A stretch of DNA of 64,000 bases from Propioniciclava coleopterorum. GTDB taxonomy: Bacteria > Actinomycetota > Actinomycetes > Propionibacteriales > Propionibacteriaceae. Numbering within the stretch: the stretch's first letter is position 1; every line of letters starts with the position of its first letter. The notes under the pieces are model-generated. The model did not search any database, was not told where the DNA came from, and saw nothing but the letters and a program-made list of their open reading frames with translations. Positions 7,927 to 64,000 of this stretch are shown here, one piece after another. Location of the stretch: positions 1,754,722 through 1,818,721 of the forward strand of contig NZ_CP049865.1 of the NCBI RefSeq assembly GCF_011393335.1, written 5' to 3'. A program made the translations under genes and the position numbers.

Positions 7927-7927
7927 G

Positions 7928-47581: not shown

Positions 47582-47631
47582 GGTCGTCTCCTGGGGGGGA
47601 TGGAGCAGCGTCGGTCCTAGCAAACCACGGA

Positions 47632-48828
47632 TCAGGCCTCGTGGGGCAGGGTGAGGGCGACGACCCAGGAGCCGTCCTGTGGTCCGGAGGCGAAGGATCC
47701 CCCGGTCAGGCGTGCCCGCTCCCGGAGCCCGCGCAGGCCCCAGCCCAGGCGCGCGCCGGCGAAACCGGCGGGCAGCGCGCTGCTCACCTGGAGTGTGACG
47801 AGCTGGGCGTCGACGGTGATCCGGACGGCGCACCTCGTGCGGGGGGCCGCGTAGGCGACGACGTTCGCCACCGCCTCGCGCAGGGTGCGGCTGAGGGTGC
47901 GCTGCACGGTCATCTCGAGCTGGTCGGCCCGGGCCGGCACCTCGATGCTGGGGTCGAACCCGGCCGCCACCAGCGCCTGCTGGGCGGCCGCTGCCGCCTG
48001 CGTGGGGGTGAGGTGCTCGGCGAGTTCCCGGATCTCGGTGCCGGACGCGGCGGTGCTGGGGTCGTCGCGCAGCACGTCGACCAGGAGCCGCAGCTCGGTC
48101 AGCGCGGCACCGGTCTCGCGCCCGACCGTCGCCAGGACGCGGCGTAGGGCCGCCTCGTCCTCGTTGCCGTCGACGCCCATGAGCTGCAGCGACGCGGTCG
48201 AGAGGTGGTGCGACACGACGTCGTGCAGTTCGCGCGACAGCGTCCGACGCTCGTCGGCGCGGATGCGGGCGCTCTCGGCGGCCTCGTGGCCCTCGGCCAG
48301 TTCGCGGCGCTCCTGCCGCGCCGACACGTAGCGCATCGCCGCGCCGCACAGCAGGCCGACCGCCAGGTTGAGGCCCAGCGTCGCCGCGACGGGCGTGGCG
48401 AACGGGCCGGCGAGCGCGGCCCGCGCGACGACGAAGGCGACCAGCAGCACGGCCACGGAGGCGGCGGTGCGCCGGCCCACCTGCGCCAGCCCGATGGCCG
48501 GTACGAGCAGCAGCAGCATGCTTTCCAGGCCGGTGGGGGTCCAGAAGATGGCGGCCGTCAGGGGGATGGCCGCCAGGACGATCCCCAGCCGGGGCCGCCA
48601 CAGCAGGGTGAGCAGGGCCGCGTAGGAGACGAGGTCCATCACGACCACGAGCGGGGTGTCGGCGAAGGTGAGCGGCGACACCACGGTGAGCCGCAGGTAG
48701 TCGATCAGCAGGAAGGCCCCGAGCGCGGTCGCCAGGAGGCGCAGCTGGGTGCCTCCGCTCAGCGCCCGCACGCGGCGAGCGGTGAACACGCCGACCCGCT
48801 CGCCGGTGCTGAACGCCGTGGTGGACAT
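47632..48828 (-). CDS. NarL-type sensor histidine kinase of the lanthipeptide cluster
   Basis: 398 residues: about five to six N-terminal helices (residues ~30-170), then the HisKA_3 box RRTLSRELHDVVSHHLSTASLQLMG with the phospho-His near 211, and a HATPase with LGWGLRGLRERARLTGGSFASG. The N box (REAVANVVAYAA) lacks the usual central Asn pair, but the G box is present. It pairs naturally with the divergent LuxR-type regulator at 49138. A 49-residue secreted peptide gene ends 5 bp before it on the same strand, so ligand and sensor may be co-expressed. Confidence 0.88.
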   Translation of the reverse strand: MSTTAFSTGERVGVFTARRVRALSGGTQLRLLATALGAFLLIDYLRLTVVSPLTFADTPLVVVMDLVSYAALLTLLWRPRLGIVLAAIPLTAAIFWTPTGLESMLLLLVPAIGLAQVGRRTAASVAVLLVAFVVARAALAGPFATPVAATLGLNLAVGLLCGAAMRYVSARQERRELAEGHEAAESARIRADERRTLSRELHDVVSHHLSTASLQLMGVDGNEDEAALRRVLATVGRETGAALTELRLLVDVLRDDPSTAASGTEIRELAEHLTPTQAAAAAQQALVAAGFDPSIEVPARADQLEMTVQRTLSRTLREAVANVVAYAAPRTRCAVRITVDAQLVTLQVSSALPAGFAGARLGWGLRGLRERARLTGGSFASGPQDGSWVVALTLPHEA

Positions 48829-48833
48829 CGGGG

Positions 48834-48983: not shown

Positions 48984-49030
48984 GACGGCCATCCTTGGCG
49001 GGTCGAGGGAGGTGATGTCGCAACACTCTC

Positions 49031-49105
49031 CCGAACGGCCCCGGCCCCACCAGTTCACCTTCGGTCAGGTCGTCCCGGCGTCCCGGTCTGGCCGTTGGTG
49101 AATGG
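49031..49105. promoter_or_regulatory. Operator cluster between kinase operon and response regulator
   Basis: Three relatives of one motif: CCGAACGGCC (49031-49040), TTCACCTTCGGTCAG (49054-49068), and TGGCCGTTGGTGAATGG (49089-49105), whose reverse complement CCATTCACCAACGGCCA differs by one base from that of the site at 56461-56477. This suggests control of the divergent regulatory genes by their own response regulator. Confidence 0.6.
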
Positions 49106-49137
49106 CAACCGGGGCCCGGTGGCTGAAAGATGGGGGC

Positions 49138-49821
49138 ATGGGCTCCTCCACCCCCGCCGCGGTCCGGGTCCTGATCGCCGATGACGACGTCCTGGTGCGC
49201 GACGCCTACCGGGCCTTCTTCGCCGCGCGCGGCGAGTTCACGCTGGTGGGGGAGGCGCGCAACGGCACCGAGGCCGTCGAGTGCTACGCCACCCTCGAGC
49301 CCGACATCGTGCTGATGGACCTGCAGATGCCCGGGATGTCCGGCATCGAGGCGACCGGCGCGATCTGCGCCAAGCGGCGGGACGCCTGCGTCGTCGCCCT
49401 GACCACCTTCGGCACCCGCGAGTACATCGTCGCGGCGCTGCGCGCGGGAGCGTCGGGCTACCTGCTGAAGGACGCGGGCGCCGACAACCTGCTGGCCGGC
49501 ATGCACCAAGCGCTGCGCGGCGACATGCCGCTGTCCTCGGCCGTTCGCCGGCAGCTGGTGGCGACCGTGACCTCGGAGGAGTCCTCGCCGCGCCCCAGCG
49601 CCGACGTCGGGCTGACCCCGCGCGAGCACGAGCTGCTGCAGTGGCTCACCAAGGGCATGACGAACTACCAGATCGCCCGGCAGATGTACGTCTCCGAGGG
49701 GTCGGTCAAGCAGTACCTGGCCCACATCGGCGACAAGCTCGGTGTGAAGTCCCGCACCCAGATCCTGGTCCGCGCCATCCAGCTCGGCCTGGTCGATCCC
49801 CACCTGGCCGACCCGGACTGA
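49138..49821 (+). CDS. LuxR/NarL-type response regulator of the lanthipeptide cluster
   Basis: 227 residues. Receiver domain with IADDDVLVRDAYRAFF, phosphoacceptor Asp in DIVLMDLQMPGMSG, Thr in VALTTFG and Lys in YLLKDAG, then a LuxR helix-turn-helix (LTPREHELLQWLTKGMTNYQIARQMYVSEGSVKQYLAHIGDKL). Divergent from the kinase operon. The repeated TTCAC-N3-CGGCCA boxes upstream of this gene, the ABC pair, lanKC, the sixth precursor and the exporter are candidate binding sites. ATG 49138 is preceded by a G run (GGGGG) at 3 nt, so the initiation signal is weak. Confidence 0.93.
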   Translation: MGSSTPAAVRVLIADDDVLVRDAYRAFFAARGEFTLVGEARNGTEAVECYATLEPDIVLMDLQMPGMSGIEATGAICAKRRDACVVALTTFGTREYIVAALRAGASGYLLKDAGADNLLAGMHQALRGDMPLSSAVRRQLVATVTSEESSPRPSADVGLTPREHELLQWLTKGMTNYQIARQMYVSEGSVKQYLAHIGDKLGVKSRTQILVRAIQLGLVDPHLADPD

Positions 49822-49839
49822 GCGCACGGGCGGGCCGGG

Positions 49840-49898
49840 TTCACGTTCGGCCAGTGTTGGCCCCCGGCCGTTGTCGGTGCGCCGGCCCTGTGTTTGAT
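49840..49898 (+). promoter_or_regulatory. Regulated promoter of the cluster ABC pair
   Basis: Box TTCACGTTCGGCCAG (49840-49854), then -35 TTGTCG (49871-49876) exactly 17 nt after the CGGCCA part, 16-nt spacer, -10 TTTGAT (49893-49898). Same geometry as the promoters at 52295 and 56001. Confidence 0.65.
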
Positions 49899-49950
49899 TC
49901 GTAGCCAGAACGCTCCGACCCCGGGAGCGCCTCCCGAAAAGGAGTCCGAC

Positions 49951-50726
49951 GTGACCCAGATGGAAGCCGGAACGATGACGACCCCCGAAGCGTTCGCCCC
50001 CGCGCCGATCGACGCCCGCGGCGTCCGGAAGGCCTACCAGGTGGGCGACGGGTTCAACGAGATCCTGCACGGCATCAGCCTGCAGGTCGCCCCGCAGGAG
50101 ATGGTCGCGGTGATGGGGCCCTCGGGCTCCGGCAAGTCGACCCTGCTCTACTGCCTCGCGGGGCTGGAGGCGCCCAGCGCCGGCGAGGTGGCCCTGGCGG
50201 GCCGGCCGTTGGCCGCGCTGAACCGCACCGACCTGGCGAAGATGCGGCGCGCCGAGGTGGGCTTCGTCTTCCAGTCCTACAACCTCATCCCGACGCTGAC
50301 GGCCGCCGAGAACGTCGCGCTCCCCGCCACGCTGGCCGGGCGCAGGCCGGACGCCGACCTGATCGCCCGCACCCTCGCCGCGGTCGGGCTGACCGAGCGC
50401 GCCGACGCCCGGCCGCCCTCCATGTCGGGCGGCGAGCAGCAGCGCGTCGCGCTGGCCCGGGTGCTGGCGCAGCAGCCGCAGGTGCTGTTCGCGGACGAGC
50501 CGACCGGCGCCCTGGACAGCCGCACCGGCGAGATGGTGCTGGCCGAACTCGTCCGGATCGCCCACGAGCCCGGGCGCTGCGCGCTCGTGGTCACCCACGA
50601 CCCGTTGGTGGCCGCGGCGTGCGATCGGGTGCTGTTCCTGCGCGACGGCCACCTGGTGCGCGAGCTGCGCGGCGGCTCCCCCGCGCGGTGGCCGAGGCGC
50701 TCGCCGCGCTCACCTCGGAGGGCTGA
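49951..50726 (+). CDS. ABC transporter ATP-binding protein, lanthipeptide cluster (apparent frameshift)
   Basis: 258 residues after adding one C at the run 50678-50682; this restores the tail AVAEALAALTSEG and a stop 3 bp before the permease start. Walker A GPSGSGKST, FVFQSYNLIPTLTA, signature MSGGEQQRVALARVL, Walker B VLFADEPTGALD and the switch His in VTHDP are intact. LolD/MacB-type ATPase. GTG 49951 has AAAAGGAG 6 nt upstream. With the permease it may give self-protection against the lantibiotic or take part in sensing, as such pairs do in other clusters. Confidence 0.88.
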
Positions 50727-50729
50727 GCC

Positions 50730-52148
50730 GTGCGCACGCTCTACCTCGCGGAGCTCCGCGACTCGTGGACGGCCTGGCTCGGCGTCTGCCTCGCCTTCGT
50801 CGTGACCAACCTGTCGTTCGCCAACTCGGCGCTCGTGCAGGCGTCCGGCTGGGCGGCCGTGCGCAAGGGCGAGCTGGACCTCATGGCCAGCGGCGAGTTC
50901 ACGCTCGTGCCCATCTCCAACTACGTGTTCTCGGGGCTGGTGGGTCTCACCGTGATCGCCACCTCGGCGAGCATGGTGGTGGACGCCCGCCGCGGCAGCC
51001 TGGCGCGGCTCGCGCTGGCCGGGGCAACGCCGGCCCAGGTGGTGCGTACGGTGATGCTCCAGCTGCTGGCGGTGTCGCTGGCGGCCGCGGTCATCGCGGA
51101 CCTCATCGCCGTGGCGACGTTGCAGCCGTGGCTGGCCTTCCTCACCACGGGGCTCGACTCGGGCGAGGTCATCAAGCAGCCGGCCCCCGTGTACGACTTC
51201 GGGGCGGTGCTGCTGGCCAACGCGGGCGTCGTGCTGGTCGCGCTCCTGGGCGGCTACGGGCAGGCGCGTCGGGCCGCAGCGGTCCCTCCCGTCGAGGCGT
51301 TGCGGCAGGCCGCCGCCCCGCCGCCGCCGCGGATGCGGGTGCTGAGCTGGGTGATGCTCGTGGTCTGCGCGGGCGTCCTGGCGCTGCTGTTCGCGGCGAT
51401 CATCCCGATCGCCTCGGTGCGCGACAGCGAGACCGTGAGCACGCTGCTGCAGATGTCCCTGGTCGCGCTGGTGCTGTTCGTGGTGATGGTCGCGATCCTG
51501 TCGCCGATCCTCATCAGCCCGCTCGCGCGCGGCTGGACGGCGCTGATCCCCACCCGGGCGGCGGTGTGGCAGCTCGCCCGCAAGAACATCTACGTCCGCG
51601 GCCCCCGCTTCGCCCGGTCGGTGATCCCCATCATCTTCACGATCGGTTTGATGCTCGGCCTGCTGGCGCTCGGCCCCACGATCTACGCGACCAGCGCGGC
51701 CAGCGGCCTGGACGGCGGTCCGATCACCCTGGACAAGGCCGGGATCGGCGCGTTCCTGTCGCTGCTCGGGCCGGCGCTGGCGATCGCGCTGGCCGGCGGC
51801 GTGGGCAACCTGTTCATGATGAGCAAGCAGCGCGACGCCGAGCTCGCCCTGCTCGGCATCACCGGCGCCACGCCCGACCAGCGCCGCGTCCTGCCGCTGC
51901 TCGAGGCGGTGATCCTCGTGGTGACGGCCGCGATCCCCGCGGTCGCGGCGCTGGGGGTCATGCTGGGCTACCTCGGGCTCAGCTTCACCGCCACCGGGAT
52001 GGTGCCCGCGTTCGCGGTGCCCGCGATCGCCTGGGCTGTGAGCATCGGAGGGACCGGCCTGATCATGATGGCGGCCACCGTGCTGCCGACGCTCGGCGCG
52101 CTGCGCCTGCCCGAGCCGCGCGTGATCGCGCGCCTGGCCGCCGAATAG
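50730..52148 (+). CDS. FtsX-like ABC permease, lanthipeptide cluster
   Basis: 472 residues with about eight helices in two groups: one N-terminal helix, then helices near 65-90, 105-135 and 150-170, a pair near 205-255, and the last FtsX-type set (RDAELALLGITGATPDQRRVLPLLEAVIL..). It lacks the very large extracellular domains of MacB. The GTG start overlaps the ATPase region by spacing only (3 bp). A strong hairpin follows, ending this operon before lanKC. It is probably the membrane half of an immunity or export pump for the cluster peptide. Confidence 0.88.
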   Translation: MRTLYLAELRDSWTAWLGVCLAFVVTNLSFANSALVQASGWAAVRKGELDLMASGEFTLVPISNYVFSGLVGLTVIATSASMVVDARRGSLARLALAGATPAQVVRTVMLQLLAVSLAAAVIADLIAVATLQPWLAFLTTGLDSGEVIKQPAPVYDFGAVLLANAGVVLVALLGGYGQARRAAAVPPVEALRQAAAPPPPRMRVLSWVMLVVCAGVLALLFAAIIPIASVRDSETVSTLLQMSLVALVLFVVMVAILSPILISPLARGWTALIPTRAAVWQLARKNIYVRGPRFARSVIPIIFTIGLMLGLLALGPTIYATSAASGLDGGPITLDKAGIGAFLSLLGPALAIALAGGVGNLFMMSKQRDAELALLGITGATPDQRRVLPLLEAVILVVTAAIPAVAALGVMLGYLGLSFTATGMVPAFAVPAIAWAVSIGGTGLIMMAATVLPTLGALRLPEPRVIARLAAE

Positions 52149-52172
52149 GACCCGGGCCCTCCTCCGGGTCGC

Positions 52173-52203
52173 GAGCCCGGCCCCCGTCACGGGGGCCGGG
52201 CTC
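52173..52203 (+). terminator. Terminator between ABC pair and lanKC
   Basis: Perfect 14-bp stem GAGCCCGGCCCCCG / CGGGGGCCGGGCTC with a TCA loop, followed by TCGTTCG. It separates the ABC operon from the lanKC promoter. Confidence 0.8.
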
Positions 52204-52294
52204 TCGTTCGTCGTCGCCCGGGTTCGCGAGGGTGCCGGCTCTCCTTCGCCGCTCGGCGGTCGCGCGGGGAAACACCTTCGACCAGACGCGCTGG

Positions 52295-52351
52295 ACGAAC
52301 GGCCAAAGGGGGCGTCCACGCATTGACCGGCCCCCGATGCTGGGTTTTGAT
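52295..52351 (+). promoter_or_regulatory. Regulated promoter of lanKC
   Basis: ACGAACGGCCA (52295-52305), 13 nt, CGCATTGACCGG (52319-52330) containing the -35 TTGACC (52323-52328), a 17-nt spacer and -10 TTTGAT (52346-52351). Both 11- and 12-bp blocks and their 13-nt spacing recur exactly at 56001-56036 before the sixth precursor gene. Confidence 0.75.
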
Positions 52352-52430
52352 GGAGCCAGGAAAAAGAACCAGGAAAGCGGAGATCTCCCTTTCCAGCGAC
52401 ATTCCCTTCACCCCGACCTAGGAGGATTCC

Positions 52431-55085
52431 ATGGGCGTTCGACCGGAGTATTTCATGGCCACGCACCCCGATTCCCCCTTCTACGGCGCGCCGCAGCGCC
52501 TCGACGAGATGATGGGCGCCGGCGAGCGCCTCCAGGCGGCCGACCTCCCCGCCGGCTGGTTGCGCCAGACCTTCGGCGTCTGGGAGGGATGGACGCCGCG
52601 CGACTGGCGTCCCCGCCTACAGGGCTGGAAGATCCACGTCTCCGCGTCCCTGGCGCACGCCACCACCACGCTGGAGCGCGTGACGTCGATCTGCGTCGAG
52701 CGCGAGGTGGCGTTCAAGTTCCTCCCCAACGAGGCGATGCTGGCCGACACCAACGGCAAGCAGGCCGACCGCGGTTCCTCGGGCAAGTTCGTCACGATCT
52801 ACCCCGGCGACGACACCCAGTTCGCCGAGCTGCTGATCGCCCTGGAGGACGCGCTGGCGGGCCAGGACGGCCCCTACATCCTCAGCGACCTGCGCTACGG
52901 CGACGCCCCGGTCTACGTCCGGTACGGCGGCATCATGGCGCTGCACTACCCCGACGAGCGCGACCAGCCGGTCGCGGCGCTCGCCGGGGGCGACACCCTG
53001 ACGCTGGTCCCCGACGAGCGGCAGCCGAAGTTCACCGTCCCGGCCGGCGTCGAGCTGCCCGCCTGCCTGGTCGCGCCGTACGAGCGCTCCCGGCAGGGCA
53101 CGCCGTCGCGGCTGCGCGAGTTCAAGGCCGTCTCGGCGCTGCACTTCAGCAACGCGGGCGGGGTCTACCTCGCGACGCTGCCCGACGGCACCCGCCGCGT
53201 CCTGCGCGAGGCCCGGCCCCACACCGGCATCGACGGCCGCGGCCGCGACGCCCTCACCCGCCAGCTCGAGGAGGAGCGCGTCCTCACCGACCTGAGCGAC
53301 CTCCCCGGCGTCCAGCACCTCGTCGGGTCGTTCACCGCCTGGGAGCACCGCTACCTGGAGCTCGACTACGTCGTCGGCCGGACGCTGACCTCCTGGGTCG
53401 TGCAGAACAGCCCCTACGACTCCCGCGACGGCGGCGCCAAGCGTGCCGAGTACGGGCGTCGCTGCCGCCGCATCGTCGGCCGGCTCGTGGACACCGTCGC
53501 CGCCATCCACGCGCGCGGCTGGTGCATCGGGGACGTGCACCCCGGCAACATCATGGTCACCGACGACGACGACGTGGTCATCCTCGACCTCGAGGACGCC
53601 AGCCGCCTGGACGCCGAGCGCACCGTCGGCTTCCGCGTCTTCGAGTTCTGCGCCCCCGAGGAGTTCACCGCCGAGCAGGCCGACTGGTACGCGGTGTCGC
53701 GCTCGATCATGCTGCTGTACGAAGCGGACTGGGAGCTCGAGGTGGTCGCGCCCGCCTTCTGGGCCGAGGCCGTCCGCCGGCTGGAGGCCGAGTACGGCGC
53801 CGAGGCCCGCGCCCAGCTGGACGCGGTGACCGCCCGGTTCCCGACCCTCGAGCATCACCTGCTGTCCCCGCGGGAGACGGTCGGGCTGTACGCGACGCCG
53901 CCGACCGCCGACGAGGCGATCCCCGCGCTGGACGCCGGCGTCGCCTGGTCCCGGGCCTTCTCGGCGCGGAACTCCTACCCGGGCGACCCGACGCAGGCCC
54001 GCGACGTCAGCGAGAGCCTCGGCTTCGGGAGGGCCGGCGTGGTGTGGTCGCGGCTGCGCACCGACGCGGCTCAGCACTCCGACGACCTCGACCTCCTCGA
54101 GGCCGCGGCTCGCGACTGGTCGCCGGAGGAGATCCCGGGCCTGTACGACGGCCTCGCCGGCCTGGCGCTCACGCTGGCTGACGCGGGTCGCCCCTCGGCC
54201 GCCGTCGCCGCCGCCCGGCGCGCGCTGCAGGGCGCCGAGGCCCGGCGCCGGCTCGACCTGTACGGCGGCCAGGTCGGCGTCCTGCTGGCCGGCATCGAGG
54301 TGGCGGCCGCGACCGGCGACGAGGAACTGCGCCGCGACGCGCTGGCCGGTCACGAGCGGTTGCACCGGGCCGTGGCGCGGGCCGGGGGACACCTCGACGC
54401 GCTCACCCACCGCCGCGGCCTGCACTTCGGGCTCGCCGGGCTGGCGCTGCTGGACCTGTCGGCGCACCTGGCCACCGGCGAGGCGCGGCTGCTCGACCGC
54501 GCGATCGACCGGTTGGCCGACGAGGTGGGCGCCTGCTTCGTCACCGCCGACGGCGAGATGATGGTCCGCGACGTCGACAACAACCGGGCCCTGCCCTACA
54601 TCGAGTGGGGCAGCGCCGGGGTCTGGGCGGTGGTGCAGCTCGCGGAGCGGCTCGCCCGGCAGCGGCTCCTGGACGACGAGCAGCGGGACGCCTTCGCCCG
54701 CTCCTGCTCCGCCGACTTCTACGTCTACCCGGGTCTCGACCACGGGCGCTGCGGCACCGCGGTGGTCCTCAGCGGCGCCGGCCCCCGCTACGCGGCGGAG
54801 GTGCAGCGGCAGCGCGACCTCGTGCTGGCCACGCTCCTCAAGCGGCTCGACATGGCCTTCGTGGCCGGTGACGGCTACCTGCGGCTGAGCTCCGACCTGG
54901 CGACCGGCGCCGCCGGCGTCCGGCTGGGCCTGCACTGCCTGGCCGCGGGCCGGCCGTTCGACTGGCTCCCCCTGGGGCGCGGCACCGCCGACCGGATCGC
55001 CGCCCTCCCGCTGCCCGACGCCGCGGGCGTGCCGGTCCCCGACCGGCCCGCGGCCCTGATCCCGGGGGTGGTCGGCCATGGCTGA
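52431..55085 (+). CDS. lanKC: Class III lanthipeptide synthetase LanKC
   Basis: 884 residues with the three-part class III plan. Residues ~1-220: phosphoSer/Thr lyase domain (FKFLPNEAMLADTNGK, RGSSGKFVTIYP, YVRYGG). ~225-500: Ser/Thr kinase domain with IGDVHPGNIMV near 365 and the metal-binding DLED near 386. ~560-884: LanC-like cyclase (GLYDGLAGLALTLADAG, HFGLAGLALL, IEWGSAGVW) without the Zn ligands (no WCxG or CHG), which separates it from class IV LanL. It phosphorylates core Ser/Thr, eliminates phosphate and guides Cys addition to labionin/lanthionine rings. ATG 52431 has AGGAGG 7 nt upstream. It overlaps lanA1 by 8 bp (ATGGCTGA). Confidence 0.95.
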   Translation: MGVRPEYFMATHPDSPFYGAPQRLDEMMGAGERLQAADLPAGWLRQTFGVWEGWTPRDWRPRLQGWKIHVSASLAHATTTLERVTSICVEREVAFKFLPNEAMLADTNGKQADRGSSGKFVTIYPGDDTQFAELLIALEDALAGQDGPYILSDLRYGDAPVYVRYGGIMALHYPDERDQPVAALAGGDTLTLVPDERQPKFTVPAGVELPACLVAPYERSRQGTPSRLREFKAVSALHFSNAGGVYLATLPDGTRRVLREARPHTGIDGRGRDALTRQLEEERVLTDLSDLPGVQHLVGSFTAWEHRYLELDYVVGRTLTSWVVQNSPYDSRDGGAKRAEYGRRCRRIVGRLVDTVAAIHARGWCIGDVHPGNIMVTDDDDVVILDLEDASRLDAERTVGFRVFEFCAPEEFTAEQADWYAVSRSIMLLYEADWELEVVAPAFWAEAVRRLEAEYGAEARAQLDAVTARFPTLEHHLLSPRETVGLYATPPTADEAIPALDAGVAWSRAFSARNSYPGDPTQARDVSESLGFGRAGVVWSRLRTDAAQHSDDLDLLEAAARDWSPEEIPGLYDGLAGLALTLADAGRPSAAVAAARRALQGAEARRRLDLYGGQVGVLLAGIEVAAATGDEELRRDALAGHERLHRAVARAGGHLDALTHRRGLHFGLAGLALLDLSAHLATGEARLLDRAIDRLADEVGACFVTADGEMMVRDVDNNRALPYIEWGSAGVWAVVQLAERLARQRLLDDEQRDAFARSCSADFYVYPGLDHGRCGTAVVLSGAGPRYAAEVQRQRDLVLATLLKRLDMAFVAGDGYLRLSSDLATGAAGVRLGLHCLAAGRPFDWLPLGRGTADRIAALPLPDAAGVPVPDRPAALIPGVVGHG

Positions 55086-55197
55086 CGCCCTGTCCCTGCA
55101 GGACATCGACCTCGTCGAGACGCCTGCGGAGGAGTACCACTCGACCAACAGCGTGTACGCGTGCGTGCTGATGAGTCAGCTCAGCATCGGTTGTTGA
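55078..55197 (+). CDS. lanA1: Class III lanthipeptide precursor LanA1
   Basis: 39 residues starting inside the last codons of lanKC. Leader MADALSLQDIDL carries the LxLQ-type box that LanKC kinases bind; Pro16 is followed by AEE. The core has two labionin motifs, Ser22-x2-Ser25-x3-Cys29 and Ser33-x2-Ser36-x2-Cys39. It differs from the other six: the second ring has a shorter spacing, Cys is the last residue, the core is uncharged and hydrophobic, and the EEK before the core is EEY. Translation is coupled to lanKC by the overlap. Confidence 0.9.
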   Translation: MADALSLQDIDLVETPAEEYHSTNSVYACVLMSQLSIGC

Positions 55198-55233
55198 GTA
55201 CGCGCGAGAACTCAAGGAAAGGAGGTGAACACC

Positions 55234-55359
55234 ATGGCTGACGTCCTGAACATGCAGGAGGAGTACCCGGAGGTCCCCCGCGAGGAGAAGGCGTCGAACG
55301 TGAGCTGGGGCTTCTGCCGCAACAGCTACCGCTCGTACGCGTTCTGCCTGGTCAAGTGA
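55234..55359 (+). CDS. lanA2: Class III lanthipeptide precursor LanA2
   Basis: 41 residues. Leader MADVLNMQ with the leader box, Pro15 followed by REEK, then core rings Ser21-x2-Ser24-x3-Cys28 and Ser31-x2-Ser34-x3-Cys38, with a basic end LVK. Aromatic residues fill the rings (WGF, YAF). An AAGGAGGTGAA site, nearly fully complementary to 16S rRNA, lies 6 nt before ATG 55234. It is 36 bp after lanA1. Confidence 0.92.
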   Translation: MADVLNMQEEYPEVPREEKASNVSWGFCRNSYRSYAFCLVK

Positions 55360-55401
55360 GGCCGGCGCCCGCCCCGACGCACCCGGAAAGGAGGTGAACC
55401 C

Positions 55402-55527
55402 ATGGCCGACATCCTGAGCCTGCAGGAGGCCTACGACCAGACGCCCGACGAGGAGAAGGCGTCCCGCTGGTCGATCGCCGTGTGCCACAAGAGCTACAAG
55501 TCCCTGGTCGCCTGTTTCGTCAAGTGA
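55402..55527 (+). CDS. lanA3: Class III lanthipeptide precursor LanA3
   Basis: 41 residues. Leader MADILSLQ, Pro15 followed by DEEK, rings Ser21-x2-Ser24-x3-Cys28 (linking RW and IAV) and Ser31-x2-Ser34-x3-Cys38 (YK and LVA), tail FVK. Strong AAGGAGGTGAA site before ATG 55402. The three residues between the rings are HKS rather than the RNS of its neighbours. Confidence 0.92.
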   Translation: MADILSLQEAYDQTPDEEKASRWSIAVCHKSYKSLVACFVK

Positions 55528-55563
55528 CCGCCCGCCCCGTCGACCCGTGAAGGAGGTGAACCC

Positions 55564-55692
55564 ATGGCCGAGATCCTCGATCTCCAGGACGGCGAGCAGG
55601 AGACGCCGCGCGAGGAGAAGGCGTCCAACATCAGCCTCCGCTGGTGCCGCAACTCCTACATCTCCGTGGCGCTCTGCTTCGTCAAGCAGTGA
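55564..55692 (+). CDS. lanA4: Class III lanthipeptide precursor LanA4
   Basis: 42 residues. Leader MAEILDLQ, Pro15 followed by REEK, rings Ser21-x2-Ser24-x3-Cys28 and Ser31-x2-Ser34-x3-Cys38, tail FVKQ. AAGGAGGTGAA before ATG 55564. It is 36 bp after lanA3; the repeating 36/42-bp gaps point to tandem duplication. Confidence 0.92.
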   Translation: MAEILDLQDGEQETPREEKASNISLRWCRNSYISVALCFVKQ

Positions 55693-55734
55693 CCCGCCCC
55701 CGACCCATCGAGTTCCCGAAAGGAGGTGACGAAC

Positions 55735-55860
55735 ATGGCTGACATCATCGATCTGCAGGCCGGCGACGAGCAGGTTCCCGGCGAGGAGAAGGCGTCGCAC
55801 GTGTCCTACGCGTTCTGCCGCAACTCCTACAAGAGCCAGGCCTGGTGCTGGAAGTGGTGA
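55735..55860 (+). CDS. lanA5: Class III lanthipeptide precursor LanA5
   Basis: 41 residues. Leader MADIIDLQ, Pro15 followed by GEEK, rings Ser21-x2-Ser24-x3-Cys28 and Ser31-x2-Ser34-x3-Cys38, Trp-rich end (QAWCWKW). AAAGGAGGTGA before ATG 55735. Last gene of the first precursor run; two hairpins follow. Confidence 0.92.
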   Translation: MADIIDLQAGDEQVPGEEKASHVSYAFCRNSYKSQAWCWKW

Positions 55861-55884
55861 GTGATCGCCACCTCGATGGCCGGC

Positions 55885-55912
55885 TCGGACAGCGCCTATC
55901 TGGCTGATCCGA
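55885..55912 (+). other. Leader-type hairpin after lanA5
   Basis: TCGGACAGC / GCTGATCCGA pair with one bulge around a loop containing GCGCCTAT. The same octamer sits in the loop of the hairpin at 56388-56436. Confidence 0.4.
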
Positions 55913-55924
55913 CCATCACCGACG

Positions 55925-55956
55925 ACCGCCGTCGTCCCTTTCGGGACGGCGGCGGT
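55925..55956 (+). terminator. Terminator after lanA5
   Basis: 14-bp stem ACCGCCGTCGTCCC / GGGACGGCGGCGGT (one mismatch) with a TTTC loop, followed by TCTCG. It splits the precursor row so that lanA6 and lanA7 need their own promoter. Confidence 0.8.
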
Positions 55957-56000
55957 TCTCGCGTGCCGGCGTCCCCTGGCGATTCGTCCCGGCTTTCCTA

Positions 56001-56057
56001 ACGAACGGCCAGGACGTTTCTTTTCGCATTGACCGGGGCATTCGTCGGCATTTGGAT
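56001..56057 (+). promoter_or_regulatory. Regulated promoter of lanA6-lanA7
   Basis: ACGAACGGCCA (56001-56011), 13 nt, CGCATTGACCGG (56025-56036) with -35 TTGACC (56029-56034), a 17-nt spacer and -10 TTGGAT (56052-56057). It can be superimposed on the lanKC promoter. The leader to ATG 56102 is about 38 nt. Confidence 0.75.
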
Positions 56058-56101
56058 GAAGGCATCCCCGAAGGGTTCGGGGAAAGGCGAAGGAGACGGA
56101 G

Positions 56102-56230
56102 ATGGCTGACGTGATCTCCCTGCAGGGCGAGGGCTGCCAGTCCCCGGACGAGGAGAAGAACTCCCATCTCTCCTACGCCGCCTGCAACAACTCGCGCCAG
56201 AGCCAGGCCTGGTGCTGGCGCTGGAGCTGA
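56102..56230 (+). CDS. lanA6: Class III lanthipeptide precursor LanA6
   Basis: 42 residues. Leader MADVISLQ, Pro15 followed by DEEK, rings Ser21-x2-Ser24-x3-Cys28 and Ser31-x2-Ser34-x3-Cys38, Trp-rich end like LanA5 (QAWCWRWS). It has one extra Cys12 in the leader. A GAAGGAGAC site precedes the ATG. It has its own promoter (56001-56057). Confidence 0.92.
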   Translation: MADVISLQGEGCQSPDEEKNSHLSYAACNNSRQSQAWCWRWS

Positions 56231-56240
56231 AGGAGGAGCG

Positions 56241-56380
56241 ATGGCCGACGTGCTGCGGCTGCAGGCCGAGGACGACCGCCCGGCGACGCCGGGGAGGAGA
56301 AGGTCTCGAGGCTCAGCTACCTGCAGTGCCACAGGAGCGCGGTGAGCGTCGCCCTGTGCGCGGTGTTCCCCCGCCGCTGA
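56241..56380 (+). CDS. lanA7: Class III lanthipeptide precursor LanA7 (apparent frameshift)
   Basis: The frame starts MADVLRLQ with the leader box but then runs out of register. Adding one G at the run 56291-56294 gives a 46-residue peptide with Pro17 followed by GEEK, rings Ser23-x2-Ser26-x3-Cys30 and Ser33-x2-Ser36-x3-Cys40, and a basic end (VFPRR). The core downstream of the break is fully conserved, which argues for a base-calling loss rather than a decayed gene. AAGGAGG precedes the ATG, 10 bp after lanA6. Confidence 0.8.
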
Positions 56381-56387
56381 CGACAAG

Positions 56388-56436
56388 TCAGGGAGTCGTC
56401 CCGATCGGCGCCTATCCGATCGGAGCAACTCCCTGA
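56388..56436 (+). terminator. Long hairpin before the exporter gene
   Basis: Two-step stem TCAGGGAGT / ACTCCCTGA (9 bp) and CCGATCGG / CCGATCGG (8 bp), separated by a small internal bulge, with loop CGCCTAT. It has no U tract, so it may act as a partial terminator or RNA stabiliser setting the precursor-to-exporter ratio. Confidence 0.5.
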
Positions 56437-56460
56437 TCCCCACCAATGGTGCCACGAGAG

Positions 56461-56477
56461 TGGCCGTTCGTGAATGG
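56461..56477 (-). promoter_or_regulatory. Operator-like site before the exporter gene
   Basis: TGGCCGTTCGTGAATGG; its reverse complement contains ACGAACGGCCA, identical to the boxes at 52295 and 56001, and matches the 49089-49105 site at 16 of 17 bases. The orientation is opposite, and no matching -35 lies at the usual distance. Confidence 0.55.
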
Positions 56478-56512
56478 ACAGCCGGCCCGACCGGCGACAG
56501 GAAGGAGCCCCG

Positions 56513-58351
56513 ATGTCCGCATCGACCGCCGGCGCGCAGCGCATCGGTGAGCTGCTGGCCGACCCACCCCGCAGCCCGCTGCGGCGCCTGAACGCCATCC
56601 TGGCCTCGGACCGACGGGCGATGCTCGTAGCGTTCGTCGGCACCATCGTGGCGTCGCTGGCCTCCCTGGCCCAGCCGGCGCTCACCGGCGCCATGGTCGC
56701 CGCGCTGCAGCAGATGGACCTGCAGCTGCTCGCGCGGATCGGCGGTGTCCTGGTCGGGGTCGCGGTCCTGGGGTCGCTGCTGTCGGCCGGGGTCAACCTG
56801 GTCGTCGCCTACGCCGGCAACCGGCTCGTAAGGCACTTCCGCGACGAGTCGGCCGCCATCGCCTTGAAGGTGCCGGCGGAGAAACTGGTCGAGCACCCCA
56901 CCGCCGACCTGGTGGCCCGCTGCTCGATCGACTCGGAGAAGATGGGCGACGTCTTCACCCGCGGCCCCATCCAGGCGCTCGGCAGCCTCGTGCTGGTCGG
57001 CGGCTCGCTGGTCCAGATGCTGCTCATCGACCCGGTGCTCACCGGGTCGGCCGTCGGGTTGTGCGTGCTGGCGCTGGTGGTCATCGTGATCGCCTCGCAG
57101 CGGCTCACGGGCATCTCGTTCGAGCGCCAGGAGGCCCAGGGCGCCTACGTCGCCGAGGTGACCCGCGCCCTGGACGCCGTCCTGACCATCCGCGCGTTCG
57201 TGGCGAACCGGTTCGCGATCGGACGCCTCGCGTCCACCAGCCAGCGCCTGCAGGACGCGTCCAACCGCACCGCCCGCGCCCAGGCCTTCATGGAGCCGCT
57301 GGTCTCGGGCCTGATCCAGGCCACCATGCTGGCCATCGTCCTCATCGCGTTCGTGCGGGTGCAGTCGGGCGCGCTGCCGGTGGACGCCCTGGTGGCGTTC
57401 TTCCTCTACACGATGATGCTCGTCGGGCCGATCGCGGGCGCCACCGAGACCGTCATGCTGATGGCCGAGACGCTGGGCGCGCTCAAGCGTCTCGTCGAGC
57501 TGCGGCTGGTCACCGAGCGGACGCCGCGCGTCACGCTGGAGCTGCGCGAGCGCCTGGAGCACGAGACGCTCGAGGAGTACGGCAACCGGCCCCGGGCCGA
57601 CCCCGACGTGCTGGAGGGCGAGATCAGCTTCCGCAACGTCTCGGTCACCTACGCCGGCGCCGGCGAGGGGGCCGGCGGGCGCGAGCACGCGCTGAGCGAC
57701 GTCTCGTTCGACGTCCCGCGGGGCTCCTGGGTGGCGCTCACCGGCACGTCGGGCTCGGGCAAGTCCACCATCCTGTCCCTGATGGAGCGGTTCCTGGTGC
57801 CCAGCCGGGGGCTCATCCTGGTCGACGGGATCCCCCTGGAGGACCGCGACGAGGACGTCTACCGCAGCCAGGTGGGCTACATCGAGCAGGCCTGCCCGCT
57901 GTTCGCCGGCACGGTGCGCGACAACCTCCTGCTCGGCCTCGACGGCATCGACGACGCGGAGTGCTGGGAGATGCTCGGACGCGTCGGGCTGGGCGGCGTC
58001 ATCGGCGAACGCCCCGAGGGCCTGGACGCCCCGGTCGGCGAGTCGGCCTACGCCTTCTCCGGCGGGGAGCGGCAGCGCCTGGCCATCGCCCGGACCCTGC
58101 TGCGGCGTCCGCGCCTGCTGCTGCTGGACGAGATCACCTCGGGTCTGGACGTGCTCAACCGCACCCAGATCATGGGGCTGATCCACTCCACGATGGGCGG
58201 CATCACCACGCTGGCGGCGGGGCACGGGCGGTTCGCCACCCAGGGCGCCGACCGGGTCCTCGTGCTGGACCGCGGCCGGCTCGTGGAGGACGGCGAACCC
58301 GACGCCGTCGCGGCCCGCTCGGCCCTCTTCCGCTCCCTGATCGCGCAGTAG
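56513..58351 (+). CDS. lanT: Half-size ABC exporter LanT
   Basis: 612-residue half-transporter: a six-helix membrane domain (about 30-330) and a nucleotide-binding domain with Walker A GTSGSGKST near 411, signature FSGGERQRLAIA, Walker B LLLLDEITSGLD. It has no N-terminal C39 peptidase, as usual in class III clusters, so leader removal is done by other enzymes. The switch-His region reads LAAGHGRFAT instead of the common IAHRLST. It probably exports the modified peptides. ATG 56513 has GGAAGGAG about 6 nt upstream. It is followed by the peptidase gene after 9 bp. Confidence 0.92.
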   Translation: MSASTAGAQRIGELLADPPRSPLRRLNAILASDRRAMLVAFVGTIVASLASLAQPALTGAMVAALQQMDLQLLARIGGVLVGVAVLGSLLSAGVNLVVAYAGNRLVRHFRDESAAIALKVPAEKLVEHPTADLVARCSIDSEKMGDVFTRGPIQALGSLVLVGGSLVQMLLIDPVLTGSAVGLCVLALVVIVIASQRLTGISFERQEAQGAYVAEVTRALDAVLTIRAFVANRFAIGRLASTSQRLQDASNRTARAQAFMEPLVSGLIQATMLAIVLIAFVRVQSGALPVDALVAFFLYTMMLVGPIAGATETVMLMAETLGALKRLVELRLVTERTPRVTLELRERLEHETLEEYGNRPRADPDVLEGEISFRNVSVTYAGAGEGAGGREHALSDVSFDVPRGSWVALTGTSGSGKSTILSLMERFLVPSRGLILVDGIPLEDRDEDVYRSQVGYIEQACPLFAGTVRDNLLLGLDGIDDAECWEMLGRVGLGGVIGERPEGLDAPVGESAYAFSGGERQRLAIARTLLRRPRLLLLDEITSGLDVLNRTQIMGLIHSTMGGITTLAAGHGRFATQGADRVLVLDRGRLVEDGEPDAVAARSALFRSLIAQ

Positions 58352-58360
58352 GGGCCGGCG

Positions 58361-60310
58361 ATGAGCGAGTACGGCTGGGTCGACGACCTCGACGCCGACG
58401 CCTTGGTGGCCGAGCTGCGCCGCCACGGCGTCGAGCTGGACGGCGACCCCTCCCATGCCGACCCGGGCGCCGACCTGGACCCCGAGGACCTCTACCAGCT
58501 GATCCCGCTGGGGCGGACCTGGCTGCGGCTCGACCCCGACTCGGCCGGCCGGATCTGGGGGTCCTTCATCCCGGACGCCGCCCACCCGGCCGTCACCGAC
58601 GGACGCCCCCCGATGCGGCTCGACGACGACGCCGCCGACCTCGACGGCTGGATGACGGCGCGCGCCGACATCGACGGCTCGGGCCGCCGCTGGGTCAGCG
58701 TGATGCGCCGACCCGAGCGGGAGGCGTACGTGGCCCTGCTGTACGACGCCGGCCCCGAGCGCCCTTCCCGGCTGCTGACCGTGCCGGGCGTCTACCCCGA
58801 CATCACGCTGCTCGACGACGGCGACCGGCTCGCGTTCGTCGAGCCGGACCGCGAGGTGCGCGGCGGGCAGCGCGCGGTCGTCGCCCGGACCGACGCCGCC
58901 GAGTACGAGAGCTCGCGCACGGTCATCTCGTCCTCGCCGACCGGGGGCATCGGCATCCGGCCGTGCTCGGTGCGGCGGTTCTTCAAGCTGAGCCGCGGCG
59001 TCCGGTCGCAGCGGGTGTGGGACCTGGTCGACGTCCGGACGCCCACGCCGCGGCCCGTCCCGGTGCCGGGCGCGCCGGGCGAGCCGCACCTGTTCGACGT
59101 GGCCCTGCTGCACGGCGCGCCGGTGCTGATCCAGATCCTCAACGGCGACGGCGCCTGGACGCTGCAGGCGACCGAGCTCGTGGACGGCGAGCCGCGCCAC
59201 TCCTGGGTCTGCGCGACGGGCGTGGGCCGCGCCCGCGAGGTCACCTCCGGCACCGAGTACGCCGTGGTGCGGGTCTCCCGCGACGGCGAGGAGACCCTGC
59301 ACCGGATCGGCATCGCGGGCTTCTCCTCCGGGGTCGAGCCGCTGCTCCGCGCCCCCGGGCTGCTCGACCTGTCCGCCAACCAGGTCACCCCGTCCATCGG
59401 GTTCGCCGCCCTGGAGATGAGCGGCGGCATCCCGCCGTTCGAGTGGTACTTCGACAACGCCGGCGCCGTCCGCAACGACCCCGCGCGCGTCGAGCGCCGG
59501 GCCGCCGGGCTGGCGCGGGCCGCGCGCGAGACGTTCCACTCCGACGACGGCTACCCGGTCGATCTGGACGTCCGGTGGCCGGCACGGGCGGGGGAGGCCT
59601 TCACCGGGCCGGTGCTGCTCATGGTCTACGGCGCCTACGGCCTCGACCTCGACCTCGACAGCGATCCCGACCTGAGCCGCTGGCTGGACGCCGGGTTCGC
59701 CGTCGCCACCCCGCACGTGCGCGGCGGCGGCCCGGAGCGGCGCCACCTGGCCGGGACGCGCGCCAACCGCGACCGCTCCCTGGCCGACACCGTCGCCGCC
59801 ATCGGGCACCTGCGCCGCGGCGACGGGGCGCTCACGGCGTCCGAACTGGTCGTGCTGGGCGCCTCGGCCGGCGGCTTCCTGGCGGCGACCACGCTGAACA
59901 CCTGTCCCGGCGACGTGGACGCCTGCGTGATCGTCAACGGCTTCGTCGACCCGCTCACGAGCCTCCTGCGCGAGGACACCACCACCCGCGCCAGCGACCA
60001 GGACGAGTGGGGCGACCCGCGCGGCAACCCCAACGACCTCGCGACGCTGCGCGCGATCTCGCCCGTGGACAACCTGGCGGCCGCCTCGGGGGCCGAGGCC
60101 CTCGTCGTCGTGGCCGCCTGCGACGTGCGCGTCAACCCGCGGCAGGGCCTGAAGTGGTTCCTGCGCTACCGCGGCCTCGGCGGCCCGGCGACGCTCTGGT
60201 ACGACCCGCAGGGCGCCCACGACTGCTGGGGCGCGGGCATGTCCCGCTCCGCGCTCGTCGACTGGGTGACCGCAGCCCTGGCCCGCCGTCGGCGCGACCG
60301 CGCCGCCTGA
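58361..60310 (+). CDS. lanP: Prolyl oligopeptidase (S9), candidate leader peptidase
   Basis: 649 residues without a signal peptide, so cytoplasmic. A beta-propeller-like N-terminal part (~70-400) is followed by an alpha/beta-hydrolase domain with Ser502 in LGASAGGF, Asp588 in ACDVRVNP and His620 in GAHDCWG, the S9 order. S9A enzymes cut after Pro. All seven precursors carry a Pro at position 15-17, six or seven residues before the first ring Ser. A prolyl oligopeptidase (FlaP) removes part of the leader in the class III flavipeptin cluster of Kribbella flavida, so the same role is likely. ATG 58361 follows lanT by 9 bp. Confidence 0.93.
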   Translation: MSEYGWVDDLDADALVAELRRHGVELDGDPSHADPGADLDPEDLYQLIPLGRTWLRLDPDSAGRIWGSFIPDAAHPAVTDGRPPMRLDDDAADLDGWMTARADIDGSGRRWVSVMRRPEREAYVALLYDAGPERPSRLLTVPGVYPDITLLDDGDRLAFVEPDREVRGGQRAVVARTDAAEYESSRTVISSSPTGGIGIRPCSVRRFFKLSRGVRSQRVWDLVDVRTPTPRPVPVPGAPGEPHLFDVALLHGAPVLIQILNGDGAWTLQATELVDGEPRHSWVCATGVGRAREVTSGTEYAVVRVSRDGEETLHRIGIAGFSSGVEPLLRAPGLLDLSANQVTPSIGFAALEMSGGIPPFEWYFDNAGAVRNDPARVERRAAGLARAARETFHSDDGYPVDLDVRWPARAGEAFTGPVLLMVYGAYGLDLDLDSDPDLSRWLDAGFAVATPHVRGGGPERRHLAGTRANRDRSLADTVAAIGHLRRGDGALTASELVVLGASAGGFLAATTLNTCPGDVDACVIVNGFVDPLTSLLREDTTTRASDQDEWGDPRGNPNDLATLRAISPVDNLAAASGAEALVVVAACDVRVNPRQGLKWFLRYRGLGGPATLWYDPQGAHDCWGAGMSRSALVDWVTAALARRRRDRAA

Positions 60311-60334
60311 CCCCGCCGATCGGAAGGAACCATC

Positions 60335-61957
60335 ATGACGAAGACCACCCGCCGCCGGCGCTGGGCCGGCGCGATCGCGGCCGTCCTGGCGCTCGGGCTG
60401 GCCCCGCTCGCAGCCCCGGCCGCCGCGGCGTCCGGGCCGGACGTCACCTCGGCGCTCGAGCGCCGCCGCGTCGACACGGTGCCCACCCCGGCGCTGGACT
60501 GGCGACCGTGTGAGTGGGGGGAGTGCGCGCGGGTGCGGCTGCCGCTGGACTACGACCAGCCCCGCGGGGCGAGCGTCGAGGTCGCGCTGACCCGGATCCC
60601 GGCGCGCCGCCCCGACCTGCGGATCGGCAGCCTGTTCCTCAACCCGGGTGGGCCCGGCATGTCGGGAACCCAGTTCCCGCAGCGCGCGCTCGCGTGGCTG
60701 GGCGACGACGTCCAGGACCGGTTCGACCTGATCGGCATGGACCCGCGCGGGACCAACGACAGCACCACGAGCCGGTGCTTCCGCTCGCCGGAGCGGCTGG
60801 ACGCCGTCACGGGCGTCCTCACCGGCATGGGCTTCCCGGTCACCGACACCGAGGAGCGCGACTTCATCCGCGGCGCCCGCGCCGTCGCCACCTCCTGCTC
60901 CGGGCCCGGTCGTCAGATGGCCTCGGCGATGTCGACGGCGCAGGTGGCCCGCGACATGGACGTCCTGCGCCGGGCGGTCGGCGACCGGAAGCTGTCCTTC
61001 CTGGGCTTCTCCTACGGCACCTACCTGGGGCAGGTCTACGCCAACCTGTTCCCCGACCGGGTGCGCGCGCTGGTGATCGACGGCGTGGTGGATCCGACCG
61101 CCTGGGTCGGGTCGGCGCGGACGGCCGGCACGCCGATCTCGGTGCGCATGAACTCCGCCCCGGCGAGCTGGGCGGCGCTGGACGAGACGCTGCGGCGCTG
61201 CGCGGCGTCCGGTGCATGCCCGATCGCCGACCCGCACGCGACCCTGGCGCGCGTCACCGACGCGCTGAAGCGGCAGCCGCTCACCATCGACGACCCCGAG
61301 AACGGGCCGTGGGAGCTCACCTACCAGCAGTTCGTCTCGACGCTGCTCTACAGCCTGTACGGCGAGGCCGGCCCCGAGGAGATCCCGGGCCTGATCGCGA
61401 TGGTGGACGCGATGCAGCAGCCGGAGCCGGCCGGCCGCGCCGCGCGCGGCGCCGGGCCGGCGCGGGAGTACGGCGCCGCCACCCGGCGCGCCGTCCAGCA
61501 CGCGCGCGGCTACGACAACTCCCTCGAGCAGGTGCCGATCGTGATGTGCAGCGACAGCCGCAACCCGCGTCGCGCCGACGCCTGGGAGCGGCTCGCCGAC
61601 CGCGAGGACGCCCGCGCCCCGTACTTCGGACGCCACTGGCTGTGGGGGTCGGTCTACTGCGCCCAGCAGCACTGGCGGGCCACCGACGAGGACGCCTACG
61701 CGGGCCCCTTCACGAAGGTGACGTCAGCGCCCGTGCTGGTGATCGGGAACGAGCATGATCCGGCCACCTCGTACGCCTCGGCCGTCGCGGTCTCGCGGCT
61801 GATCCCGCGCAGCCGCCTGCTGAGCAGCAACAACTGGGGCCACACCGCCTACGGCGTCTCCGCGTGCGCGACCGCCCACGCCGACCGCTACCTGGTGGCC
61901 GGGACGCTGCCGCCCGCCGGCACACGCTGCACCGACGGGGCGCAGCCCTTCGGCTGA
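60335..61957 (+). CDS. Secreted tripeptidyl aminopeptidase-type alpha/beta hydrolase
   Basis: 540 residues with a signal peptide (RRRRWAGAIAAVLALGLAPLAAPAAA). The S33 peptidase family (Streptomyces Tap/SlpD/SlpE type) is shown by LFLNPGGPGMSG, DLIGMDPRGTNDS, Ser226 in GFSYGTYLG, Asp475 in GNEHDP, His503 in NWGHTAYG, and the C-terminal TAP-like domain with Cys pairs. It lies 24 bp after the prolyl oligopeptidase gene, with AAGGAA at 7 nt. After a cut behind the conserved Pro, a tripeptide x-E-E remains before Lys-Ala-Ser, so an outside enzyme that removes N-terminal tripeptides would finish maturation. This role is inference from context. Confidence 0.88.
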   Translation: MTKTTRRRRWAGAIAAVLALGLAPLAAPAAAASGPDVTSALERRRVDTVPTPALDWRPCEWGECARVRLPLDYDQPRGASVEVALTRIPARRPDLRIGSLFLNPGGPGMSGTQFPQRALAWLGDDVQDRFDLIGMDPRGTNDSTTSRCFRSPERLDAVTGVLTGMGFPVTDTEERDFIRGARAVATSCSGPGRQMASAMSTAQVARDMDVLRRAVGDRKLSFLGFSYGTYLGQVYANLFPDRVRALVIDGVVDPTAWVGSARTAGTPISVRMNSAPASWAALDETLRRCAASGACPIADPHATLARVTDALKRQPLTIDDPENGPWELTYQQFVSTLLYSLYGEAGPEEIPGLIAMVDAMQQPEPAGRAARGAGPAREYGAATRRAVQHARGYDNSLEQVPIVMCSDSRNPRRADAWERLADREDARAPYFGRHWLWGSVYCAQQHWRATDEDAYAGPFTKVTSAPVLVIGNEHDPATSYASAVAVSRLIPRSRLLSSNNWGHTAYGVSACATAHADRYLVAGTLPPAGTRCTDGAQPFG

Positions 61958-61970: not shown

Positions 61971-62432
61971 TCACTTCCGGGGGGTCTGGGCGACCTCGAA
62001 GTCGAACACGAACGTGCCGTCGGGCGTGACGTGGGTGATGGTCACCGCCACGTCGTAGACGTCGCTGCCGTCGGTCAGTGAGCACGGCAGCGTGTCGCCG
62101 GGGGCGATCCACACGGGTTCGCTGCCGCAGTCGACCTTCGGGCGCCGACCCACCTGCTTCTCCAGCTCGTTCTCGACCGACGTGGCGATCCCCTCGGGCC
62201 GGGACTGCATCCTGCCCTCGGCGTTCATCGTGGGCGTCGGCGTCGGGGTGGCGGACGGGGCCGGGGAGGACGGGACGGGCGCCGACGGCTTCGCGGCGGG
62301 CGACGTCGGCGCGCCCGTGACCGGTGCGGTCGTGGTGGGGGCTGAGGGGAACGCCGAGAGCACCGAGCAGCCGCTCGCCCCCAGGGCCGAGACGAGCAGG
62401 AGGCCGACGGCGGCGAGTCGCGAGCGCTTCAC
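61971..62432 (-). CDS. DUF4333-like lipoprotein
   Basis: 153 residues: signal peptide with lipobox GASGC (Cys22), a long Ser/Pro/Thr linker, and a C-terminal domain of about 75 residues of the DUF4333 form (KQVGRRPKVDCGSEPVWIAPGDTLPCSLTDGSDVYDVAVTITHV) with two Cys likely bridged. An outer-face lipoprotein of unknown function. GTG 62432 has AAGGAA 6 nt upstream. Convergent with the tripeptidyl peptidase gene, 13 bp away. Confidence 0.82.
   Translation of the reverse strand: MKRSRLAAVGLLLVSALGASGCSVLSAFPSAPTTTAPVTGAPTSPAAKPSAPVPSSPAPSATPTPTPTMNAEGRMQSRPEGIATSVENELEKQVGRRPKVDCGSEPVWIAPGDTLPCSLTDGSDVYDVAVTITHVTPDGTFVFDFEVAQTPRK

Positions 62433-62501: not shown

Positions 62502-64000
<1,499 letters not shown>

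Follow-up and report, generated by a model that had tools for sequence, protein, structure and literature searches.

The locus described here raises the question of why one class III lanthionine synthetase (LanKC) should stand beside seven different precursor genes, which an earlier note on this DNA had read as a natural peptide library. We analysed a stretch of 64,000 nucleotides of the Propioniciclava coleopterorum genome, called the window below, and compared it with related genomes. It seems quite likely to us that a single LanKC acts on seven distinct precursor lineages that are conserved as a set, with the working proposed in the last section.

Gene content of the locus

The locus at positions 52431-61957 of the window is real and comprises a LanKC, precursors, an ABC exporter and two peptidases. 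It probably makes ring-bearing peptides from the small precursor genes. The features of the locus and of the DNA upstream are:

45305..47581, minus strand: HK2, sensor histidine kinase-like protein, 758 aa from the chosen Met (Pfam HisKA_3 on the enclosing ORF)
47632..48828, minus strand: HK1, histidine kinase-like protein, 398 aa from the chosen Met (homologues in relatives)
49102..49821, plus strand: LuxR/NarL-type response regulator (Pfam Response_reg and GerE)
49894..50805, plus strand: ATPase of an FtsX-type ABC transporter, true start probably at 49960 or later (Pfam ABC_tran; close homologues beside FtsX in relatives)
50730..52148, plus strand: FtsX-like permease, proposed immunity or efflux partner (Pfam FtsX)
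52294..52350, plus strand: promoter-like element upstream of LanKC (AACGGCCA..CATTGACC; motif twice in the genome, looser echoes in relatives)
52431..55085, plus strand: LanKC, class III lanthionine synthetase, 884 aa (NF038151, RamC_N, Pkinase, solved LanKC chains)
55078..55197, plus strand: precursor P1, overlapping the LanKC stop, with a SapB-like, neutral core (leader and core motifs; own starred clade in the tree)
55234..55359, plus strand: precursor P2 (leader and core motifs, alignment)
55402..55527, plus strand: precursor P3 (leader and core motifs, alignment)
55564..55692, plus strand: precursor P4 (above the Pfam RamS and NCBIfam SapB_AmfS cut-offs)
55735..55860, plus strand: precursor P5 (leader and core motifs, alignment)
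55923..55960, plus strand: strong hairpin following P5 that may be a terminator (z -5.8 for the fold of 55858-55990)
56001..56055, plus strand: second promoter-like element, before P6 (same repeated motif)
56102..56230, plus strand: precursor P6 (leader and core motifs, alignment)
56241..56383, plus strand: precursor P7, frameshifted as sequenced (relatives' homologues have one open frame)
56387..56437, plus strand: hairpin between P7 and the exporter (fold z -5.7)
56474..58351, plus strand: ABC exporter with its membrane and ATPase domains on a single chain (Pfam)
58361..60310, plus strand: S9 protein resembling prolyl oligopeptidases, by eye without an obvious signal peptide (Pfam Peptidase_S9, 83 bits)
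60335..61957, plus strand: S33 TAP-like hydrolase with a signal peptide by eye (Pfam Abhydrolase_1 and Abhydrolase_4, 'TAP-like protein')

The assignment of the cluster to class III, made in the earlier note, is borne out by the sequence. LanKC scored 666 bits against NCBIfam NF038151 (cut-off 575) and only 282 bits against the class IV LanL model (cut-off 650), its RamC_N and kinase domains were above the Pfam cut-offs, and solved LanKC chains align to residues 36-430 and 564-841. The cyclase part reached 18.2 with Pfam LANC_like, below the cut-off of 23.2, and a search of the genome with that model gave no match. However, NF038151 spans residues 11-835, and the cyclase is therefore taken to be too divergent for the model rather than absent. 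A search with LanKC itself found a single match in the 3.67 Mb genome. The exporter and the two peptidases that had been claimed are likewise all present by Pfam. The catalytic part of the S9 protein aligns with solved structures of oligopeptidase B and prolyl endopeptidases, and the best solved matches of the TAP-like protein are named Carboxylesterase A, Hip1, Protease and Secreted hydrolase. A peptidase domain was not among the exporter's Pfam matches, and by eye its start at 56513 has the better ribosome site. A DUF4333-like small protein (below the cut-off; 61971-62432, minus strand) follows the TAP-like gene.

P2 to P5 are separated by gaps of about 40 bases, and P6 and P7 follow after a gap of 241 bases. 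Each precursor core carries two Ser-x2-Ser-x(2-3)-Cys motifs, and the ring fillings given earlier (WGF, IAV, LRW, YAF; YAF, LVA, VAL, QAW) match the sequence. An LxLQ or LxMQ leader is found in the six intact precursors and in the leader of the broken P7, P2 having M for L. Over 17 rows of P2-P7, M1, Q8, P15, K19, the four Ser and the two Cys are invariant. The net charge (K+R-D-E) is +3 to +5 in P2-P6 and the P7 piece, which also hold several aromatic residues, and 0 in P1. P4 is above the cut-offs of Pfam RamS (29.5 vs. 24.3) and NCBIfam SapB_AmfS (28.4 vs. 25); the other five intact precursors fall under the SapB/AmfS (RamS) cut-offs or give no match, P1 being below that of SapB_AmfS. A profile built from 17 precursors of the window, the relative G210 and Propioniciclava soli matched the 3.67 Mb genome at seven sites, with weak matches for P1 and the P7 piece. 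All of these lie within the array, which is therefore not a product of chance.

There are thus seven tandem genes, as the earlier note had it, but the seventh is frameshifted, so six precursors are intact. The leader frame of P7 stops at 56345, the core motif (SRLSYLQC..SAVSVALC) lies in another frame, and no ORF of at least 30 aa in the ORF list ends with the motif-bearing frame at 56383. We considered a programmed frameshift, but since P7 homologues in five relatives (G210, P. soli, G008, G028 and G081) keep a single open frame, decay or a sequencing error appears more likely. No second strain of P. coleopterorum was among the genomes searched.

Relatives and the two modules

The precursor profile matched 10 of 391 genomes from the order, all of them in the window's family, and 1 of 396 from the phylum, which was the window's own. 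LanKC was matched in 37 of 198 family genomes (E<=0.001), in many through kinase-like pieces only. Seven genomes carry arrays: the window has seven precursor genes (six intact), G210 seven, G008 nine, P. soli (G005, of the same genus as the window's genome) four, two and one in three places, G028 (a Micropruina) six, G081 six and G031 four, one spurious ORF each in G028 and G210 having been left out. Spurious short ORFs were dropped by eye at L032-L034, L154, L156-L157 and L160. More distant precursors occur in G078, G163, G169 and G178.

G210 has the same seven precursors as the window in the same order. The window's LanKC is closer to that of G210 than to that of G008, a member of the window's own genus. 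However, the G210 assembly is in 390 contigs with 6% contamination and its LanKC is split over two of them, so that, given also the nearness of its LanKC, its genus placement is to be used with care.

Three further loci have repeated or multiple genes. At L157 (G169; 6912-8069), four identical short precursors stand at an exact spacing of 353 bases beside a LanKC. At L161 (G212; 10348-11193), five distinct class III precursor-like ORFs form a separate array beside a LanKC with only 31-34% identity to that of the window; G212 is from the same family. G078 (L036-L039) has five LanKC matches at four places, two with duplicated precursors.

The precursors of the window form two modules, each preceded by a repeated motif. 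The motif, AACGGCCA N15-25 CATTGACC, occurs twice in 3.67 Mb, before LanKC and before P6, and its backward-read control does not occur in the genome. By eye, looser versions lie upstream of LanKC or P6 in relatives; those ahead of LanKC in G028 and G081, and ahead of P6 in G210, are the faintest. A consensus sigma-70 scan of 52100-56600 found no promoter, and the promoter claim therefore rests on the repeated motif. The consensus scan of the same region called one terminator-like site, equal to the shuffle mean of 1.0, and did not call the hairpin after P5. Binding of this motif by the response regulator is conjecture.

The arrangement in P. soli suggests that parts of the cluster travel as modules. 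One place holds FtsX, LanKC and P2-P5, with P1 not found beside the LanKC; some 60-70 kb off on the same contig are the response regulator, kinase, open P6 and P7, exporter, oligopeptidase and TAP-like gene, the last reversed. A third place (L207, G005:C54, about 5700-5830) has an orphan precursor beginning MADILDLQ beside two FtsX permeases, and the 11 kb read there gave no LanKC, exporter, oligopeptidase, TAP or ATPase match. The orphan is a possible substrate in trans. A carbohydrate phosphorylase lies at 62502-63977 (minus strand) in the window; its P. soli homologue comes directly after P5, where module B is missing.

The genes listed in the earlier note do lie between 52431 and 61957, but that span omits 45305-52148, with the kinases, the response regulator and the FtsX-type ABC genes. 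The cluster probably reaches upstream to about 45305, because these genes accompany it in the nearer relatives, where an FtsX permease, ATPase and LuxR-type response regulator lie near LanKC or module B, with a histidine kinase in most. Response regulator homologues 53-75% identical occur in seven of the nine loci searched. Homologues of HK1 are 48-53% identical in G008 (partial), G028, G081, G210 and P. soli and were not found in L035 or L159; the matches of HK2, next to the cluster in G028, G081, G210 and P. soli, are weaker at about 30-35% identity and partly overlap those of HK1. The FtsX permease has homologues in L031-L035, L155 and L159, and none in L036, L037, L156-L158 or L160-L162. 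It was thus not found at five of the more distant family loci read that have exporter and oligopeptidase matches (L036, L037 and L156-L158). The loci of G078, G169 and G178 that were read gave no FtsX match. The company that FtsX permeases keep with precursors suggests a role in immunity.

Leader removal and conservation of the set

A Pro stands at -6 from the first core Ser in all six intact leaders of the window and in 40 of 45 precursors of the seven genomes (the broken P7 left out); the exceptions are four P2-type genes of G008 (Ala) and one gene of G028 (Val). Together with the prolyl oligopeptidase and the secreted TAP-like protein, this sequence pattern suggests a two-step leader removal. 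The simplest model from these enzymes and the Pro would be a cut after Pro followed by loss of one tripeptide. FlaP, according to the accessible part of a review, is a prolyl oligopeptidase that cuts after a leader Pro; how the leader is finished was unclear when FlaP was reported, and is now ascribed there to metalloproteases. It is conceivable, if rather unlikely, that an M1 AplP-like or other housekeeping protease matures the peptides and that the oligopeptidase and the TAP-like protein serve something else. The same part of the review has AplP-like metalloproteases maturing several actinobacterial class III peptides and suggests that they finish after FlaP, and the Pro does not track the oligopeptidase across wider loci. 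However, the Pro is fixed in register with the core, and the oligopeptidase and exporter stay beside P6-P7 even in the split P. soli cluster.

We also considered the leader Pro as a marker of oligopeptidase clusters, and dropped it when reading the wider loci revealed no clean correlation. RamS-type leaders have ETPKEE with no oligopeptidase match in the DNA fetched, and the G078 and G169 loci have an oligopeptidase, yet mostly Thr at the Pro position. As far as the accessible text of PMC5719810 goes, Brevibacterium clusters with a FlaP-like gene mostly lack the leader Pro. A TAP match was found in L032, L033 (end only), L035 and L179 and in no other locus, some of which end before TAP.

Whether the array is a library or a conserved set was judged from orthology and selection. 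Each of the seven window precursors finds its best full-length G210 match at the corresponding position of the array, P7 through its C-terminal piece; with cores alone this holds for six, P5 going to P6. Every window precursor matches another genome better than its own paralogues, P6 narrowly (0.64 vs. 0.62), in a comparison set without the second P. soli locus. A tree was built from 42 rows and lacks four precursors found later; on it the seven precursor groups need 7 label changes (minimum 6, shuffled mean 28), a partly circular test in that the groups were assigned by similarity. Support is good for P1 and P7; P2 and P3 each form one group with weak support, P4 and P6 take two changes and P5 four, and the few columns leave many forks open.

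The cores are under purifying selection, which means conservation and not free diversification. In three genome pairs, which include P1-P6 against G210 and P2-P6 against P. soli, pooled dN/dS was 0.40, 0.34 and 0.35 for the cores and 0.44, 0.53 and 0.38 for the leaders. Core residues other than Ser and Cys gave 0.54-0.57, and LanKC 0.39 in one pair. A combinatorial library in the manner of the ProcM and SyncM systems, in which a promiscuous LanKC acts on freely diversifying precursors, would account for the ring fillings that vary among paralogues, the four to nine precursor genes of the seven array genomes and the four near-identical P2-type copies in G008, a recent duplication. These copies are the only recent tandem ones among the seven array genomes, and cores more conserved than leaders, with orthologous groups that persist across species, make such a library improbable; we reject its strong form on the core dN/dS and the orthologous groups on the tree. 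The library proposal of the earlier note is not supported, and the array looks like a conserved team of distinct peptides. Least probable of all is a largely vestigial locus, in which only one or two precursors are of use while the others decay, as may have happened to P7. The P7 frameshift, and at P. soli the P1 not found and the exporter, peptidases, P6 and P7 lying elsewhere, would fit it, but the window has its enzymes and six of its precursors intact, pooled dN/dS is well below 1 for P1-P6 against G210 and for P2-P6 against P. soli, and the second P. soli locus has open frames for P6 and P7.

Known systems and proposed working

The precursor count of seven is not new, and the system belongs to a known kind. 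Among the best 80 of 577 confirmed LanKC loci, automatic counts, which are lower bounds (LxLQ-type precursors within about 3.5 kb), gave no precursor in 4 loci, one in 64, two in 8, three in 1 and four in 3. The last are P. soli, a Micropruina and Crossiella, and the fourth Crossiella candidate (L084) was judged spurious and dropped, so 78 of these 80 have at most three credible precursors. Family loci outside the best 80 also carry several (five at L161, four identical at L157). The remark that seven is many for class III thus holds among these 80 loci, but clusters with seven precursors are published in Firmicutes: andalusicin (ThurA1-A7; PMC10604976) and paenithopeptin (PttA1-A7; PMC8960859), both from the accessible parts of these papers. 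In addition, 13 identical class III precursors have been reported in one Bacillus cereus cluster, and 57% of class III precursors are reported to stand alone.

In the accessible part of PMC8960859, the ptt cluster of Paenibacillus thiaminolyticus has one LanKC and PttA1-PttA7, one of them apart from the other six, and the precursors were cut in vitro depending on modification. Unlike the window, it belongs to a Firmicute, has one motif per core and a methyltransferase, and uses M16B proteases where the window has S9 and S33 enzymes. Andalusicin of Bacillus thuringiensis shares one class III synthetase (ThurKC) with seven precursors, but these are nearly identical, its proteases lie outside the cluster and it has a methyltransferase, as the accessible text of PMC10604976 describes it. 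In the SapB/AmfS (RamS) family, whose cut-offs P4 exceeds and which P1 resembles by eye, most of the loci surveyed show a single precursor and, in the DNA fetched, no S9 match. Flavipeptin of Kribbella flavida has a single precursor. Its class III cluster is like the window's in that the prolyl oligopeptidase FlaP cuts after a leader Pro, but this is at -12 there and at -6 here, on the sources as far as accessible. The accessible part of PMC10668361 mentions a class III cluster 'like labyrinthopeptin' in P. soli SCSIO 13291, of the same species as the relative carrying P2-P7, and does not describe the precursor set; it is presumably the cluster compared here. A search of the open literature for lanthipeptides with Propioniciclava, Propionibacteriaceae and Micropruina otherwise yielded, in the parts accessible, work on leaderless bacteriocins, and no description of a conserved, ordered, two-module actinobacterial set.

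For the conserved set, we infer the following enzyme steps, order of export and cleavage, regulation, immunity and bioactivity. The LuxR-type response regulator and a neighbouring histidine kinase would switch on two promoters sharing one motif, giving LanKC with P1-P5 from module A, and P6, P7 (broken here), the exporter and the peptidases from module B. LanKC would bind each LxLQ leader, the four motif Ser would be phosphorylated and then eliminated, and the Cys would complete two labionin or lanthionine systems in each peptide. The prolyl oligopeptidase may cut after the Pro six residues before the first core Ser, after which the exporter would move the peptide out. The secreted TAP-like enzyme would then take off a single tripeptide, x-E-E in P2-P6, so that K-A- or K-N-[ring] is left, and the FtsX-type ABC transporter would protect the producer. 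Since P1 is SapB-like and neutral and the others are cationic with aromatic residues, P1 may be a surface or signalling peptide, and P2-P6, with the P7 piece, may be membrane-active. More tentatively, the seven peptides could be a co-ordinated multi-component system whose lineages each have a role of their own and are needed together, with FtsX and the response regulator sensing or tolerating them and orphans fed in trans to LanKC; we regard this as doubtful.

The fixed Pro/x-E-E/K register offers a simple hypothesis for the finishing of oligopeptidase-cut leaders, and the seven genomes with their four to nine precursor genes form a natural comparison series. Here, in an actinobacterium, a single class III synthetase appears to act on seven substrates that are old, distinct and conserved each on its own. 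The case makes two questions testable: what lets a single LanKC take ring fillings that differ while their spacing does not, and why a bacterium maintains such a number of peptides in parallel.
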